From the NCBI GenBank assembly GCA_006218055.1, contig VBWD01000009.1, forward strand, positions 1-50,868: 50,868 nt of DNA, in the 5' to 3' direction. The notes beneath the pieces were generated by a model that ran no database searches, was not told where the DNA came from, and saw nothing but the letters and a program-made list of their open reading frames with translations. Source of the stretch: Gallionellaceae bacterium (GTDB lineage: Bacteria > Pseudomonadota > Gammaproteobacteria > Burkholderiales > Gallionellaceae). Position numbers and translations under genes: made by a program. Of this stretch, positions 3,137-40,317 are shown one piece after another (positions within the stretch are counted from its first letter, which is position 1; each line of letters opens with the position of its first letter).

Positions 3137-3186
3137 TCTCTCACCCTCAATCCCTCTCCCAGAGGAAGAAGGTTAGGGATGAGGGC
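3137..3186. repeat. Dispersed CCCTCTCCC-type palindromic repeat
   Basis: The gap between gcvP and tpx holds a C-rich then G-rich element: CTCACCCTCAATCCCTCTCC followed by AGGTTAGGGATGAGGG. Related copies lie at 25601-25648 and, as a doubled form, inside polA at 27627-27719. Elements of this look are common as intergenic repeats in beta- and gammaproteobacteria. It may also act as a stem-loop after gcvP. Confidence 0.6.
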
Positions 3187-3211
3187 GCATTTGGCGAAGC
3201 GCTTAAAAACT

Positions 3212-6070
3212 TTATTTTGTGTAACTCGCAATCGGAGGGCAAGAACAGATAAGGTTCTTGTCGCCGTACACATTATCCACTCTCGCCACGCTGGGCCAGA
3301 ACTTATTCTCACGCACGTAGGGCAATGGGAAAGCGGCCTGTTCGCGGCTGTAAGGACGCGACCAATCGCTAGACACAACGGCCTTCGAGGTGTGCGGTGC
3401 GTGTTTAAGGATGTTGTCTTTCTTGTCTACCTTGCTGGTGAGGACTTGGTCGATTTCGCCACGGATGGCGATCATCGCGTCGCAGAACCGATCTAACTCC
3501 GCCTTCGATTCGCTCTCGGTCGGTTCCACCATCAGCGTATCCACCACCGGGAAGGAGGTGGTCGGCGCGTGGAAGCCAAAGTCCATCAGGCGTTTGGCGA
3601 TGTCGGCCACTTCCACGCCGTCTTTCTTCCAGTCGCGGCAGTCGAGGATCATCTCGTGCGCGCATCGGCCGTTGCTGCCGCTGTACAAGGTGGCGTAGCT
3701 GTCTTTCAGCGATTCCTTGATGTAGTTGGCGTTGAGGATCGCCATCTTGGTCGCTTCGGTGAGCCCCTTGCCGCCCATCATCTTGATGTAGCCGTAGGAG
3801 ATCAGCAGGATCAGTGCGCTGCCGTAGGGCGCGGCGGAAACCGCGTGGATGCCCTGCGCACCGCCGACTTTCACCACGGGGTGTGACGGCAGGAACGGCG
3901 TGAGATGTTCCGCCACGCCGATGGGGCCTGCGCCCGGTCCGCCGCCGCCGTGCGGGATGGCGAAGGTCTTGTGCAGGTTGAGGTGGCACACGTCTGCGCC
4001 GATGTTGCCGGGGCTGGTGAGGCCGACCTGCGCATTCATGTTGGCGCCGTCCATGTACACCTGGCCGCCGTTGGCATGGATGATAGAGGTGATGTCCTTG
4101 ATGCTTTCCTCGTACACGCCGTGTGTGCTGGGGTAGGTCACCATCAGGCACGACAGGTCGGCCTTGTGTTCTTCCGCTTTCGCGCGCAGGTCGTCCACAT
4201 CGATGTTGCCCTTGCTGTCGCACTTCACCACCACGATGTGCATGCCGCACATCGCTGCACTGGCGGGGTTGGTGCCGTGAGCGGAGGAAGGGATGAGCAC
4301 CACGTTGCGCTGACCTTCACCGCGCGAACGGTGATACGCCTGAATGACCAGCAAGCCCGCGTATTCGCCGGACGCGCCACTATTCGGCTGGAAGCTCATC
4401 TGTGCGAAGCCGGTGATCTCGGATAGCGCGGCATCCAGACCTGCGATAAGGGCTTGGTAACCCTCGACCTGTTCCATTGGCACGAAGGGGTGCAGATTGG
4501 CGAACTCTGGCCAAGTCAGACCTAGCATCTCGGATGCTGCGTTGAGTTTCATGGTGCAAGAGCCGAGCGAGATCATCGAGTGGGTGAGCGACAGATCTTT
4601 ATTTTCGAGACGCTTGATGTAACGCATCATCTCCGTCTCGGAGTGATAGGTATTGAACACTGGATGGCTCAGGATGGCCGATTGGCGCGGCTTGAAGAGC
4701 AGTGCTTGCGCTGCCACTTGTGCGTTTGTGACGGCCGGTGCGGTCTTGCCTGCGGCTTGTGCGAACACGGCGAGGATAGCGTTGAGGTCGTCCACCGAAG
4801 TGGTCTGGTCTAGTGCGATGCCAATGCCTTCGGTGCTGTAACGGAAGTTGATGTGCGCGGCTTCGGCCAGCGCGTGGATCTTCACGTTGTCGGTATGGCT
4901 GAGTTTCAGTGTGTCGAAGAAGGAGTCGTAAGCCACGGTGTATCCGAGCTTCTTCAGTTCGTTCGCCAGCAGTGCGGCGGAGCGATGCACTTGTGCCGCG
5001 ATACCGCGCAGACCTTCTGCACCGTGATACACCGCGTACATCGAAGCCATGATGGCGAGCAGTGCCTGAGCGGTACAGATGTTGGACGTGGCCTTCTCGC
5101 GGCGGATATGTTGCTCGCGCGTTTGCAATGCCATGCGCAACGCGGGGTTGCCATCGGCATCCACCGACACGCCGATGATGCGACCCGGCATGGAGCGCTT
5201 GTGCGCATCGCGGCAAGCGAAGAACGCGGCGTGCGGGCCGCCGTAGCCCATCGGCACGCCGAAGCGTTGCGTCGAACCCAGCACCACATCCGCCCCCCAC
5301 TCGCCCGGCGGTGTGAGCAACACCAAGCTCAAAATGTCAGCCGCGACGGCGATGGTCATGTCATTCGCTTTGGCGCGCGCGACGAAATCCGCGTAGTCAT
5401 GCACCACGCCGTTGGCAGCAGGATATTGCAACAGTGCACCGTACAGTTTGTCGTTCAGTGTGACGGTCCGGAAATCGCCGATGACCAAGTCGATGCCGAG
5501 TGGCTTGGCGCGCGTCTTCAGCAACTCGATGGTCTGCGGGAAACATTCGTGCGACACGAAAAAACTATTCTTACCCGCCGCCACGTCATCGCGCGAGCGC
5601 AGGCCGTGTAACATCGTCATCGCTTCCGCGGCCGCAGTGGCTTCATCCAGCAAAGATGCGTTGGCGATCTCCATGCCAGTGAGGTCGCACACCATGGTTT
5701 GAAAATTCAGCAACGCTTCCAAGCGTCCTTGTGCGATCTCGGCTTGATAAGGCGTGTAAGCCGTGTACCAACCGGGATTCTCCAGCACGTTGCGCTGGAT
5801 GACGGGCGGCACGATGGTGTCGTAATAACCCAGCCCGATGTAACTCTTGAACAACTTGTTCTTCGCCGCGATATCACGCAGATGTTGCAAGAACGCGTAC
5901 TCGCTCATGCCGTCAGGCAGGTTCAACGGCTTCTGCAAACGGATGGCGGCGGGCACGGTCTGATCGATTAGCGCATCCAAGCTGGGCGCATTGATCTTGT
6001 TCAGCATGGCTTGCACATCTGCTGCGTTCGGGCCGTTGTGGCGATTGACGAATTGGTCGGTGTTGTTCAT
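3212..6070 (-). CDS. gcvP: Glycine dehydrogenase (decarboxylating), P protein
   Basis: A 952-residue P protein of the glycine cleavage system. It decarboxylates glycine on pyridoxal phosphate and passes the aminomethyl group to lipoyl-GcvH. It is the single-chain type, with a degenerate N-terminal half and a catalytic C-terminal half. The PLP lysine lies in [16 protein letters not shown], preceded by [13 protein letters not shown] and [14 protein letters not shown]. The start is the ATG at 6068-6070 ([14 protein letters not shown]), two codons after an in-frame TTG. It is third in the gcvT-gcvH-gcvP operon, 44 bases after gcvH, and is expected to be under the glycine riboswitch upstream of gcvT. 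The C-terminus [10 protein letters not shown] is typical. Confidence 0.97.
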
Positions 6071-25600: not shown

Positions 25601-25648
25601 GTTCGCCTCCTCGCCCGCTTGCGGGAGAGGATTGAGGTGAGGGAACGG
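25601..25648. repeat. Dispersed CCCTCTCCC-type palindromic repeat
   Basis: An intergenic copy between thrB and the DUF2782 gene: CCTCCTCGCCCGCTTGCGGGAGAGG forms the palindromic core (TCGCCCGC / GCGGGAGA around TT), followed by ATTGAGGTGAGGG. It belongs with the copies at 3137-3186 and 27627-27719. The rest of this 133-base gap shows nothing else I can name. Confidence 0.6.
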
Positions 25649-26771: not shown

Positions 26772-29603
26772 ATGAAGACATTGTTGCTGGTGGATGGCTC
26801 GTCCTATCTGTATCGTGCTTTCCACGCCATGCCTGACTTGCGCAGTCCGCAAGGCGAGCCGACGGGTGCTATCCAAGGCGTGCTCAACATGCTGAAAAAA
26901 TTACGCAGCGACTTTCCGGCGGATTATAGCGCCTGTGTGTTCGACGCGAAGGGCAAGACGTTTCGTGACGACTGGTATCCCGAGTACAAAGCCAATCGTC
27001 CCTCCATGCCGGACGACCTGCGTGCGCAGATCCAACCGCTGCATGAGCTGGTCGCCGCAGCAGGCTGGAACATCCTCATGGTGGATGGCGTGGAAGCGGA
27101 TGACGTCATCGGCACGCTGGCACAGCAGGCGTCGAACAATGGCGCGCGCTGCATCGTTTCTACCGGCGACAAAGACCTCACGCAACTGGTGAATACCAAC
27201 GTCACTTTAGTTAACACCATGAGTAACGAGATCATGGATGAGGCGGGTGTACTGGCGAAGTTTGGTGTGCCGCCCAATCGTATCGTGGATTACCTCACAC
27301 TGGTGGGGGATGCCGTGGACAACGTGCCGGGCGTGAACAAGTGCGGCCCCAAGACGGCGGTGAAATGGCTCACCCAATACGATTCGCTGGATGGAGTGAT
27401 CGCCAATGCAAAAGACGTCGGCGGTGCGGTGGGTGAGAACCTGCGCGCCGCCTTGGATTGGTTGCCGCAGGGGCGCAAGTTGGTCACCGTGAAATGTGAC
27501 GTGGCGTTGGATAAACGCTATGACGAATTGACAGCGCCTGAGGAAGACAAAGTTAAATTGAAAGCGATGTTCGAGCGCTATGGTTTCCGCACCATGTTGC
27601 GCGAACTTTCAAATTCCACTGTTTCGCTCCCTCTCCCATCGGGGGAGGGCTGGGGTGGGGGGACACTCTTTCAACAAAGCGCTGAAGTCAAAAGCCCCCT
27701 CCCCCGTGGGGCGAGGGAGTTAGATCAGCGCCAATTCGAACAAGCCGAACTCCCTTCAACCACCAACGACACCTCGCACTACGAATCCATCCGCACCGAA
27801 GCGCAATTAGATGAGTGGTTAGAAAAGCTGATGTCAGCATCGCTGGTGAGCTTGGACACCGAGACCACCGGCCTCGATCCGATGGCTTCTCAGTTGGTGG
27901 GTATCTCCTTCAGCATAGAGGCACATCAGGCTGCCTATCTGCCTTTGGCGCATCACTACCCGGGCGCCCCTGACCAAGTGAAGCTTGAACATGCGCTACA
28001 GAAACTCAAGCCATGGTTGGAAAGTGCGGCGCACAAGAAGCTGGGGCAGAATCTCAAATACGACCAGCACATCTTCGCCAATCATGGCATCGCACTCCGC
28101 GGTATTGCCGAAGACACTTTGTTGCAATCCTATGTGCTGGAGTCGCATAAACCGCATGAGATGGGCAACCTTGCCTTGCGTCACTTGGGGCTGGCGACGG
28201 TGAGCTACACCGATGTGGTGGGCAAAGGCGCGAAGCAGATCGGTTTCGACCAGGTCGATCTTGACACCGCCACCCGCTACGCCGCAGAAGATGCCGACAT
28301 AACACTGCAACTGTACCAGACCTTGTCGCCACAACTGGAAGGGCGCTTGACCGAGGTGTACCGTGACATCGAGATGCCGGTGCGCGAAGTGCTGTTCAAG
28401 ATGGAACGCAACGGCGTACTCATCGACAGCGTGAAGCTATCGCGCCAGAGCCACGAGCTGGGAGAGAAGCTGATGTCCATCGAAGCACAAGCGTTCGAGA
28501 TGGCGGGCCAACCGTTCAACCTTGCTTCGCCCAAGCAACTGCAAGAGATCCTGTTCGACAAGCTTGGCATCCCCTCCAAGAAGAAGACCGCCACAGGTTC
28601 GCGCTCTACCGATGAAGAGGTGCTGCAAGAACTGGCTTTGGACTACCCGCTGCCGAAGCTGCTGCTTGAGCATCGCGGCATGGCTAAGCTCAAATCCACT
28701 TATACCGACAAGTTACCTTTGATGGTGAATCAAAAGACAGGCCGTGTGCACACCAGTTACTCGCAGGCCGTCGCGGTGACCGGGCGCTTGGCCTCTACCG
28801 ACCCTAACTTGCAGAACATTCCCGTGCGTACCGCCGAAGGTCGCCGCATCCGAGAAGCGTTCATCGCACCGGCCGGTTCGCGCATCGTCTCTGCCGACTA
28901 TTCGCAGATCGAGCTGCGCATCATGGCGCACCTGTCGGGTGATGAAGGTCTGCTCAAGGCTTTCGCCAATGGTGAAGACATCCACCGTGCCACCGCCGCC
29001 GAAGTGTTCGGCGTGGCGCTGGATGCAGTCAGCAGCGAACAGCGCCGCTATGCCAAGGTCATCAATTTCGGCCTCATCTACGGTATGTCGGCTTATGGTT
29101 TGGCCTCGCAACTCAACATTGAGAACAGCGCCGCCAAGCAATACATCGACCTCTACTTCGCGCGTTACCCCGGCGTGAAGCGCTATATGGATAGCACGCG
29201 CGAACAAGCCAAAGCGCATGGTTACGTCGAGACATGGTTCGGCCGCCGCCTATGGCTACCCGAGATCAACGGTGCCAACGGAATGAGAAGACAAGCCGCC
29301 GAACGCGCTGCCATCAACGCGCCGATGCAAGGCACGGCCGCCGACCTCATCAAACTCGCGATGATCGCCGTGCAAGATTGGTTGGAAAACGAGCCATCGG
29401 CGAGTTTCGAGGGACGGCCAAAAGAAAAGCTACAAACCAAACTCATCATGCAAGTACACGATGAATTGATACTCGAAGTGCCTGAAGCTGAATTGGCTTT
29501 AGTGAAAGAGAAGCTGCGCGAATTGATGTGCAATGTGGCGCAGTTGAAAGTGCCGCTAGAAGTGGGGCTGGGAGAGGGAGCGAATTGGGATGAGGCGCAT
29601 TGA
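26772..29603 (+). CDS. polA: DNA polymerase I, with an in-frame repeat in a linker
   Basis: A 943-residue family A polymerase for Okazaki fragment processing and repair. Domain order: 5'-3' exonuclease (1-about 285; VDGSSYLYRAFHA, GVEADDVIGTLA), 3'-5' exonuclease (about 335-530; SLDTETTGLDP with the catalytic Asp and Glu, YAAEDADITLQL), polymerase (about 530-943; motif A VSADYSQIELRIMAHLSGD, motif B RRYAKVINFGLIYGMSAYG, motif C MQVHDELILEVPE). Proofreading residues look intact. Odd: residues 286-316 are encoded by a palindromic repeat inserted exactly in the linker between the two exonuclease domains. The ATG at 26772 (MKTLLLVDGSSYL) is chosen over an upstream in-frame start. Confidence 0.97.
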   Translation: MKTLLLVDGSSYLYRAFHAMPDLRSPQGEPTGAIQGVLNMLKKLRSDFPADYSACVFDAKGKTFRDDWYPEYKANRPSMPDDLRAQIQPLHELVAAAGWNILMVDGVEADDVIGTLAQQASNNGARCIVSTGDKDLTQLVNTNVTLVNTMSNEIMDEAGVLAKFGVPPNRIVDYLTLVGDAVDNVPGVNKCGPKTAVKWLTQYDSLDGVIANAKDVGGAVGENLRAALDWLPQGRKLVTVKCDVALDKRYDELTAPEEDKVKLKAMFERYGFRTMLRELSNSTVSLPLPSGEGWGGGTLFQQSAEVKSPLPRGARELDQRQFEQAELPSTTNDTSHYESIRTEAQLDEWLEKLMSASLVSLDTETTGLDPMASQLVGISFSIEAHQAAYLPLAHHYPGAPDQVKLEHALQKLKPWLESAAHKKLGQNLKYDQHIFANHGIALRGIAEDTLLQSYVLESHKPHEMGNLALRHLGLATVSYTDVVGKGAKQIGFDQVDLDTATRYAAEDADITLQLYQTLSPQLEGRLTEVYRDIEMPVREVLFKMERNGVLIDSVKLSRQSHELGEKLMSIEAQAFEMAGQPFNLASPKQLQEILFDKLGIPSKKKTATGSRSTDEEVLQELALDYPLPKLLLEHRGMAKLKSTYTDKLPLMVNQKTGRVHTSYSQAVAVTGRLASTDPNLQNIPVRTAEGRRIREAFIAPAGSRIVSADYSQIELRIMAHLSGDEGLLKAFANGEDIHRATAAEVFGVALDAVSSEQRRYAKVINFGLIYGMSAYGLASQLNIENSAAKQYIDLYFARYPGVKRYMDSTREQAKAHGYVETWFGRRLWLPEINGANGMRRQAAERAAINAPMQGTAADLIKLAMIAVQDWLENEPSASFEGRPKEKLQTKLIMQVHDELILEVPEAELALVKEKLRELMCNVAQLKVPLEVGLGEGANWDEAH
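27627..27719. repeat. Inverted-repeat element in frame within polA
   Basis: Two near-identical inverted arms, 27627-27653 (CTCCCTCTCCCATCGGGGGA...) and 27693-27719 (GCCCCCTCCCCCGTGGGGCG...), flank a loop of about 39 bases. The element is 93 bases, a multiple of three, with no stop codon in the polA frame. It encodes 31 residues of Ser/Pro/Gly-rich linker. Single-arm relatives lie between genes at 3137-3186 and 25601-25648. Confidence 0.8.
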
Positions 29604-38170: not shown

Positions 38171-39307
38171 TCAAGTCATCTTCAGGTGATCCAAACCACC
38201 CATCACATCTCTGTCTTTGGTGGCTTGCCCTTCCAGCTTGATCTTCAAGCGCAGATCGTTGACGGAGTCGGCATTCTTCAATGCTTCTTCGTAGCTGATC
38301 ATGCCTGCCTCGTGCAGGTCGAACAGAGCTTGGTCGAAGGTCTGCATGCCGAGCTCACGCGACTTGCCCATCACGGTCTTGATCTCATGCACATCGCCCT
38401 TGAAGATGAGGTCGGCGATGAGGGGCGAGTTGAGCAGGATCTCGATGGCGGCGGAACGTCCCTTGCCATCACGTTTGGGGATCAAGCGTTGCGAAACGAG
38501 CGCTTTGATGTTGAGTGACAAGTCCATCAGCAGTTGTTCACGCCGCTCTTCGGGGAAGAAGTTGATGATGCGGTCAAGCGCCTGGTTGGCGCTATTGGCG
38601 TGCAGGGTCGCCATACACAGGTGGCCAGTCTCGGCGAAGGCGACGGCGTATTCCATGGTCTCGCGGTCGCGTATCTCACCGATGAGGATGACGTCAGGCG
38701 CTTGGCGCAGGGTGTTCTTCAGTGCGTTGTGCCAGTTGTCGGTATCCACACCCACTTCGCGATGCGTGATGATGCTCTTTCCATGTTCATGCACATATTC
38801 CACCGGGTCTTCGATGGTGATGATGTGGCCGTAGCTGTTCTGGTTGCGGTGGCCAAGCATAGCCGCCATGGTGGTGGACTTGCCAGAGCCTGTGCCGCCC
38901 ACCAAGATCACCAATCCGCGTTTGGTCATCACCACGTCTTTCAATATGGGTGGCAAGCCCATCTCTTCAAAACCCGGGATCTTGGTAGTGATGGTGCGCA
39001 ACACCATGCCGACACGTTGCTGTTGCATGAACACGTTCACGCGGAAGCGACCGATGCCGGAGGGGCTGATGGCGAAGTTGCATTCATGTGTGGATTCGAA
39101 CTCGGCCGCTTGGCGGTCATTCATGATGCTGCGCGCCAGTTCTTGCGTATGCTGCGGTGACAGCGCTTGGTTCGATACCGGTGTCATCTTGCCGTCGATC
39201 TTGAACGCAGGCGGGAAGCCTGCGGTGACGAAAAGATCGGATGCCTTTTGCGAGATCATCCCGCGCAATAAATTGTGGACTAGTTCGGTGGCCTGGTCGC
39301 GTTCCAT
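38171..39307 (-). CDS. pilU: Type IV pilus retraction ATPase PilU
   Basis: A 378-residue accessory retraction ATPase of type IV pili, a hexameric PilT paralogue at the inner-membrane base of the machine. Walker A is GGTGSGKSTTMAAM, the Asp box is IITIEDPVEYVHEHG, Walker B is VILIGEIRDRETMEYA, and the His box is AETGHLCMATLHANSANQALDR. The PilU-type C-terminal extension after GMQTFDQALFDL is present (KLEGQATKDRDVMGGLDHLKMT, in parts). It lies 21 bases after pilT on the same strand and appears intact, unlike pilT. PilU normally depends on PilT for function. Confidence 0.95.
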   Translation of the reverse strand: MERDQATELVHNLLRGMISQKASDLFVTAGFPPAFKIDGKMTPVSNQALSPQHTQELARSIMNDRQAAEFESTHECNFAISPSGIGRFRVNVFMQQQRVGMVLRTITTKIPGFEEMGLPPILKDVVMTKRGLVILVGGTGSGKSTTMAAMLGHRNQNSYGHIITIEDPVEYVHEHGKSIITHREVGVDTDNWHNALKNTLRQAPDVILIGEIRDRETMEYAVAFAETGHLCMATLHANSANQALDRIINFFPEERREQLLMDLSLNIKALVSQRLIPKRDGKGRSAAIEILLNSPLIADLIFKGDVHEIKTVMGKSRELGMQTFDQALFDLHEAGMISYEEALKNADSVNDLRLKIKLEGQATKDRDVMGGLDHLKMT

Positions 39308-39328: not shown

Positions 39329-40317
39329 TTAGCCGGGGAACAAGTCTTTATTCGCAGCCTTGGTGCGTGCTTCGGCAGAGGAGACGATGTTGCGTTTGAC
39401 GAGATCGGTCAGACATTGATCCAGTGTCTGCATACCGATAGCACCGCCGGTTTGGATGGCGGAGTACATCTGCGGCACTTTTGCTTCGCGGATCAGGTTG
39501 CGGATAGCTGGTGTACAGATCATGATCTCGTGCGCGGCGGCGCGGCCTGCGCCATCCTTGGTCTTGAGCAGCGTCTGCGAGATGGGAACACGTCGATGAT
39601 ACGGTCAATGGTTTTTGCGGCAGAGCTGGTGTGCAGCGTGCCGAACACCAAGTGGCCGGTTTCCGCAGCGGACATCGCCAAGCGGATGGTCTCCAAGTCG
39701 CGCATCTCACCCACGAGGATGACGTCCGGGTCTTCACGCAATGCTGAGCGCAAGGCGTTGTTGAAGGACAGTGTGTGCGGACCGACTTCGCGCTGGTTGA
39801 TCAGGCATTTCTTGGATTCATGCACGAATTCGATGGGGTCTTCCACTGTCAGGATATGTCCCTGTTCAGTCTCGTTCTTGTGATTCACCATCGCCGCCAG
39901 GGTCGTTGATTTGCCGGAGCCTGTCGGGCCGGTGACTAGCACCATGCCACGCGGGTAATCAGCGATAGTTTCGAAGATTTTGGGTGCTTTGAGGTCTTCC
40001 AGTGACAATATCTTGGAAGGAATGGTACGCATGACTGCTGCTGCGCCACGATTTTGGATGAACGCGTTGACACGGAAACGCGCCAGATTCGGCACTTCGA
40101 ACGAGAAGTCGATCTCTTTATTCTCTTCGTAATGTTTGCGCTGCCCGTCGTTCATGATGTCGTACACCATGGCATGCACATCCTTATGCTCCATCGCAGG
40201 CAGGTTGATACGGCGCATGTCACCGTGTACGCGGATCATGGGAGGCAAACCGGAAGAGAGGTGCAAGTCGGATGCTTTGTTCTTCACGCCGAAGGCGAGC
40301 AGTTCGGTGATATCCAT
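39329..40317 (-). pseudogene. pilT: Type IV pilus retraction ATPase PilT, internal deletion and frameshift
   Basis: The main retraction ATPase of type IV pili. The 5' part (40317 to about 39584) is normal: MDITELLAFGVKNKASDLHL, Walker A GPTGSGKSTTLAAM, Asp box ILTVEDPIEFVHESKK, Walker B VILVGEMRDLETIRLA, His box AETGHLVFGTLHTSSAA, then IIDVFP. At 39583/39584 the family's next 18 residues or so (the xxxEKxxVRxMLSESLxxV helix) are missing and the frame shifts. The correct frame resumes as ISQTLLKTKDGAGRAAAHEI and continues MICTPAIRNLIREAKV... to 39329. Adding back 55 bases would give 347 residues, the normal PilT length. As read, translation ends at 39520 after 265 residues, with a foreign tail. 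It could be real loss of twitching retraction or an assembly deletion. Confidence 0.9.

Follow-up and report, generated by a model that had tools for sequence, protein, structure and literature searches.

Introduction

Repeats of the TM_ECO family, formerly called PIT (potential intrastrand triplex), number 3610 in 262 proteobacterial genomes, and the available excerpts of the paper describing them assign them no specific function (PMC4666352). They are defined by the pattern CCCTCNCCC N3-6 GGGNGAGGG N3 GGGNGAGGG with at most one mismatch. In Escherichia coli MG1655 the same excerpts present them as always intergenic, as inverted pairs in five cases and as untied to mobile elements; triplex formation is reported in vitro for E. 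coli copies only, and the data give no support for it in vivo. Here we describe a repeat of this type inside polA, the DNA polymerase I gene of a Gallionellaceae bacterium, located on a contig of 50,868 nt (VBWD01000009.1; the whole stretch is referred to as the window). The insert resembles the published repeats in its consensus (a pyrimidine stem, a purine stem and a purine third strand) and in its inverted pairing. Unlike the MG1655 copies, it lies in frame within a gene, and its relatives bracket DUF559 genes.

Palindromes in frame within bacterial genes have been described before. Repetitive extragenic palindromic (REP) sequences of the GTAG and CGTC types form doublets that span 20-30 codons of repair genes and keep the frame. 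Excerpts of PMC3733652 name DNA polymerase I, UvrA, RecBCD and DnaE2 among the proteins that contain them in one species or another, and place the recB copies of two Xanthomonas species at about the same position. An in-frame palindrome in polA is therefore not new as a kind: the element that an earlier note on the window had singled out is real, but its like was already on record for DNA polymerase I elsewhere. GTAG and CGTC REPs are nevertheless another family, since the polA repeat carries neither tag, and the excerpts do not describe family-wide recurrence at one polA site. For GTAG repeats they point to REP-associated tyrosine transposases (RAYTs); for CGTC repeats no dedicated enzyme is named.

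Rickettsia palindromic elements are likewise in-frame palindromes that occupy solvent-exposed parts of proteins and recur at the same locus in orthologues (PMC3767692, PMC10969869); the excerpts of both papers mention no nuclease gene, and our comparison with them is by description. The earlier note had likened the polA insert to these elements. The likeness holds for behavior, but the sequence is that of a TM_ECO/PIT triplex-type repeat, and on this match, without a letter-by-letter comparison, a Rickettsia-type element was set aside. The ShiLan domain is also an endonuclease-bearing insertion in frame with its host methylase and without splicing domains; it differs in that its HNH nuclease lies in another frame, in that it is found in phages, and in that the excerpted description mentions no triplex-type terminal repeats (PMC11855218).

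DUF559 is still listed as a "protein of unknown function" in Pfam. According to excerpts of the respective papers, its E. coli member YcjD was earlier classed as PD-(D/E)XK with a profile that detects Vsr (PMC1189080), and VsrA, a DUF559 protein of Caulobacter, causes an SOS response in cells that lack a cytosine methyltransferase (PMC12907096). Among the titles and listings of open-access papers we found none linking DUF559 with repeats; most subscription papers were beyond the scope of that search.

Results

The host is a Sideroxydans-like metagenome-assembled genome (MAG) of the Gallionellaceae (1.66 Mb, 100 contigs, 71% complete), and the window corresponds to its contig C79. By polA, the closest named relatives of the host are Sideroxydans MAGs of the same family. 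The polA open reading frame (26772..29603, + strand) encodes 943 amino acids including the insert and contains the Pfam domains 5_3_exonuc_N, 5_3_exonuc, DNA_pol_A_exo1 and DNA_pol_A. Within it, positions 27627..27719 of the + strand form a 93-base inverted repeat, LPLPSGEGWGGGTLFQQSAEVKSPLPRGARE, with a loop of 39 bases, read as 31 stop-free codons (residues 286-316). A repeat profile that excluded polA matched both arms. The first unit (27623..27672, + strand; nhmmer, 43.7 bits, E 7e-13) directs its tail, GGGGTGGGGGGACACTC, into the loop and includes the TM_ECO core CCCTCTCCC-ATC-GGGGGAGGG-CTG-GGGTGGGGG (27629..27661, + strand), which deviates from the consensus published in PMC4666352 by one mismatch and is the sole match at that level in the window. 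The second, inverted unit (27696..27724, − strand; 15.2 bits, E 6.5e-4) has no third (tail) strand and is a hairpin only. The insert thus falls within the sequence definition of TM_ECO/PIT and departs from the reported intergenic habit, which is not part of that definition.

A long hairpin made of two inverted units recurs as a unit in the family to which the polA insert belongs. The RNA of positions 27620-27725 (106 nt) folded at -55.7 kcal/mol (z -3.35), and one of 200 dinucleotide shuffles did equally well. An Rfam scan returned no match near the gathering score. The insert lies between Pfam domains 5_3_exonuc (166-259) and DNA_pol_A_exo1 (337-523), and in an AlphaFold2 model based on 40 sequences residues 283-328 were the longest of three segments with a predicted local distance difference test score below 50. 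The insert lies in a disordered linker, with the 5'-nuclease domain on one side and the 3'-5' exonuclease domain on the other. On all these points, the in-frame palindrome and its position in the linker, the observation made in the earlier note is confirmed.

The 47 units behind the repeat profile come from 29 host loci (L002-L030), and at least one of these units flanks the host's own hrpA-DUF559 copy. The rough consensus of the host units is (C/T)TAG-CTCCCTCTCCC-nnn-GGGAGAGGG-CT-GGGGTGAGGG-AACACTC, and inverted doublets are frequent. We surveyed polA using 150 loci, namely 70 from the 149 (of 158) family genomes with a polA match and 80 named ones. These gave 122 distinct sequences, two of which (L064, L065) end within the linker. 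The profile detected repeats in the linkers of 36 distinct polA at E<=0.01 and of 39 at E<=1, and had no match elsewhere in the 345,852 nt of the 122 sequences. All 39 were among the 82 closest polA (>68.2% identity, a set that includes L147, labelled Sulfuricella), and none was among the 40 more distant ones. The strict TM_ECO motif (<=1 mismatch) was present in 30 of the 122, in linkers only. The arrangement of units was '+-' in 24 linkers, '-+' in two and '++' in one, with one unit detected in the remaining 12. The insertion is therefore one of many.

Ranked by whole-protein identity, the closest genomes are G153, G132 and G130 (polA loci L032-L034, 94-95% amino acid identity); all three are without the insert, in line with the absence from close relatives for which the earlier note had proposed a check. 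G148, nested among the nearest genomes in the polA tree, has a different repeat subtype. On a quick tree of polA (86 sequences, linker columns removed, 22 open forks), the linker switches between filled and empty at least 20 times, a count that cannot separate gain from loss. Subtypes, reading frames and orientations of the repeat all differ at this one linker site, which points to repeated arrival or replacement. By eye, the insert takes the place of about 12-15 linker codons present in empty relatives; it is repeat-derived and in frame, as had been claimed, but is not a clean addition. Other linker peptides common to several species (TSDLAGVLSQPSRISKSSIRGD, GDLSPSGLRTFGEAVGNH), unlike the repeat, were seen in the polA of L097/L130, L135, L091, L094 and L128, and are possibly other in-frame elements.

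The same repeats bracket DUF559 genes. DUF559 was found in 23 of 34 genomes of the genus, and we examined 32 of the 43 genus matches listed, together with 29 loci from other families of the class, the latter being the best-scoring rather than a random sample. A gene was considered bracketed when repeat units at profile E<=0.05 lay within 250 nt of it on both sides. This was so for 23 genus loci, with units on one side at five and on neither at four; the corresponding counts for the class were 15, five and nine. The nearest units were oriented inward (+,-) at 16 of the 23 bracketed genus loci and 11 of the 15 bracketed class loci. Bracketing was seen at none of eight control loci with Y1_Tnp. 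In a profile-free test, the upstream flank was aligned with the reverse-complemented downstream flank. Terminus scores of at least 40 were reached by 22 of 30 genus and 15 of 29 class DUF559 loci vs. none of 1000 random windows, and by none of the seven scorable Y1_Tnp controls. The left and right termini within a class element matched each other better than termini across loci (p 5e-4, 27 loci); this comparison left out L209, L211, L215, L218, L232, L233, L239 and two short class loci. The '+-' insert in polA has the inward pair and the terminal units of bracketed DUF559 loci, with a short loop replacing the gene.

At some loci the repeats and the nuclease both lie in frame within a host gene. 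In the hrpA of the host, a DUF559 domain comes after the first repeat cluster without a change of frame, and the complete frame (G000:C90; L024, L007, L290) holds four repeat clusters and DUF559 and is open over 1564 amino acids. Among solved structures, 3hrl, an "Endonuclease-Like Protein", came closest to the DUF559 domain in hrpA (E 2.3e-22). Among 28 hrpA loci a single site, after ...ERFAKHF, was filled with repeat plus DUF559 in 10 and empty in 16; of the remaining two, L302 has one repeat unit only and L312 a doublet of another kind. Filled and empty alleles at one site among relatives, the hallmark applied here for homing-type elements, are thus seen at hrpA. All 10 filled frames are open from the hrpA N-terminus through DUF559 to downstream hrpA. 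The doublet of L312 (G136:C9) is an unrelated REP doublet of the GTAG type, likewise in frame (NVGASLLANDGVEKIASKLAP). DUF559 with repeats in frame was also found in Mod, HsdS (two), HsdM, a DUF1156-type methylase, MmeI and BioF, and Pfam placed DUF559 within the HrpA, HsdS, HsdM, Mod, MmeI, DUF1156-type and BioF frames. Of 11 long class-level DUF559 frames (L270-L280), six passed the filter; L272 and L276-L279 did not.

Copies in frame also occur in other genes of the host. A whole-genome search with a 116-nt query gave 37 matches at E<=10, the insert included, and 25 at E<=0.01. The copies at L002-L030 formed 30 clusters, or 31 with polA, a count that the host copies exceed, as further exact motifs are present. 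On manual reading, 15 of the 31 clusters lie in frame within 11 conserved genes. These genes are hrpA (four clusters), a UvrD/RecB-type helicase (two), a DinG-type helicase, mfd, mutM, cysS, mtnA, an ABC permease, a solute-binding protein, a TgpA-type protein and polA. Pfam identified 10 of the 11 frames, in the ABC permease with a matched domain on only one side of the repeat, and the hrpA frame is supported by its relatives. The insert lies between the N-terminal and H2TH domains in mutM, and between the catalytic and DALR domains in cysS. The other 16 clusters are intergenic, of doubtful frame, or possible N-terminal extensions. Two intergenic copies in the window had been noted earlier as single arms. 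That at 25603..25646 (+ strand; nhmmer E 0.0056, three mismatches to TM_ECO) is indeed a single unit, but the 3.1-kb copy consists of overlapping units at 3140..3172 (− strand) and 3149..3194 (+ strand) (E 1.5e-4 and 3.8e-6, respectively; three mismatches to TM_ECO).

We also compared the occurrence of the motif and of DUF559 across genomes. The exact TM_ECO pattern was present in 80 of 369 class genomes, and the reversed pattern in none. With strong DUF559 matches defined by E<=1e-15 and the host left out, 40 class genomes had both, 39 the motif only, 37 DUF559 only and 252 neither, counts that are uncorrected for relatedness. Taking one genome per family (n = 158), which corrects for relatedness only in part, the numbers were 19, 14, 13 and 112, respectively (p 4.6e-8).

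In E. coli K-12 MG1655 the DUF559 gene is, by annotation, ycjD. About 170 nt beyond the 3' end of this gene there is a perfect TM_ECO; another, degenerate copy overlaps the stop codon. The chance of a TM_ECO so near ycjD, calculated by hand from the published 23 copies, is about 0.004. The upstream side of ycjD, where there is no TM_ECO, has a long palindrome, CACCTCATTCTGAC..GTCAGAATGAGGTG (L320, ~3260-3305).

Elsewhere in the window, positions 38655-38709 and 39686-39740 form a 55-nt direct repeat that is 80% identical. By eye, we take it to reflect a putative pair of PilT/PilU-like ATPase paralogues.

Discussion

Judged from its sequence, the polA insert is probably a gene-less copy of a DUF559 element, comparable to a miniature inverted-repeat transposable element (MITE), that is tolerated in the linker. 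The repeat units would serve as terminal inverted repeats at the ends of a small mobile element, and the complete element would contain a single gene, for a DUF559 nuclease (Vsr-like, PD-(D/E)XK). The polA copy would have the termini and the inward orientation of the full element, with the 39-base loop where the gene would be. DUF559 may cut the hairpin or the target DNA and so mobilize complete and gene-less copies alike. In polA, two TM_ECO/PIT-type units with their tails inward would have entered the linker between two independent domains of Pol I, where the insert may merely be translated as a disordered spacer, and Pol I presumably still works with it. Selection would retain copies within genes only where they are in frame and borne by a tolerant loop or linker. 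Survival at such places only would mean that copies come, go and return at identical sites throughout the family.

A wider form of this proposal, attractive but somewhat short of probable, holds that TM_ECO/PIT repeats across Proteobacteria, those of E. coli among them, are the termini and MITEs of an unrecognized mobile element whose enzyme is DUF559 (YcjD-type, Vsr-like). Its hairpin or triplex ends would allow it to enter host genes in frame and with no need for splicing; Pol I, HrpA, restriction-modification proteins and others would then carry it in translated form.

Several results weigh against a DUF559 element. No DUF559 gene was found in any of the 150 polA loci, where the longest linker is 83 amino acids, so the link to polA rests on repeat type and orientation. 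No target-site duplication was recognized. The matching of left and right termini is weak in the genus (p 0.063, 25 loci), nine of the 29 class loci have no nearby unit, and some DUF559 genes lie between whole doublets rather than single units. Of the genus loci without units, L211 and L233 are bracketed by another palindrome family, L209 is at a contig end and L218 has none. At the level of families, 14 of the 33 with the motif have no strong DUF559 match, and the motif-rich genomes G204 (43 copies) and G430 (59) have no DUF559. TM_ECO flanks ycjD on one side only, with none on the other; the E. coli control genome gave no PF04480 match despite the ycjD annotation in MG1655; and two E. coli strains without ycjD have an efflux operon at that place (PMC12817139, as excerpted), which leaves no clean empty site for the gene.

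The L209 contig end itself reads as a repeat fragment. In L211 and L233 (DUF559 at 1501) the flanks are CTCAAATCCCTCC..CCTCCCTTT..AAAGGGAGG and CCCCCTTT..AAAGGGGG, so the association of DUF559 may extend beyond TM_ECO.

The chief competing view is that repeats and DUF559 gather in the same unstable places and neither causes the other. There would be no dedicated mobilizer; the repeats would spread by replication slippage, template switching or recombination, DUF559 would accumulate at or be attracted to unstable repeats, and the polA and hrpA linkers would simply be tolerant. We regard this as unlikely but as a serious contender. It fits the published account, in which TM_ECO repeats go with local instability and, in E. 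coli, do not accompany mobile elements (PMC4666352), as well as the motif-rich genomes without DUF559 and the one-sided TM_ECO at ycjD. It also fits the GTAG-type doublet in frame at the hrpA site of G136 (L312), which indicates that this site tolerates several elements. It accounts poorly for inverted, inward units close on both sides of DUF559, for an inverted-terminus score that no random window reached, and for the co-occurrence of motif and DUF559 at the family level.

A second alternative takes the insert for a REPIN, in which a RAYT (Y1 tyrosine transposase) would mobilize a REP doublet. The doublet architecture resembles it, Y1_Tnp genes are present in 122 of the 158 family genomes, and many units have (C/T)TAG before the stem, reminiscent of the GTAG tag. 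In the alignment of host units, however, the tag is neither GTAG nor CGTC, and the host genome, at 71% completeness, has no Y1_Tnp match. Furthermore, among 25 distinct Y1_Tnp loci (from 28 stretches, given that L204 was off the listed matches and two pairs overlap) none was bracketed and two (L103, L195) had a one-sided unit. A RAYT as mobilizer is thus unsupported by the host and by its relatives, and we consider a REPIN improbable.

More doubtful still is retention of the insert for a function: a hairpin or triplex formed by polA DNA or mRNA might make replication or translation pause where the two domains meet, or the linker might tune Pol I. The strong fold of the insert would suit such a role, as would the frequency of repair and helicase genes among the in-frame copies, which is also noted for REPs generally in excerpts of PMC3733652. 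Yet the nearest relatives do without the insert, its presence changes many times on the tree, subtype, frame and even orientation vary at the same site, and the linkers of the 40 more distant polA have no repeat. An assembly or binning error, conceivable for a MAG in 100 contigs, can practically be discounted because relatives have comparable inserts at the same polA site, including the single-contig genomes G154 and G124.

The DUF559 element thus remains our preferred explanation, and the interpretation in the earlier note is partly supported. A link between TM_ECO/PIT and DUF559 would merge two puzzles into a single question open to testing, for which E. coli K-12 is of use because it has both. 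The longer relatives of the polA insert, with their small nuclease gene, hint at how common, unexplained repeats spread. If the proposal is true, mobile DNA repeatedly adds protein segments to repair enzymes at the same linkers.

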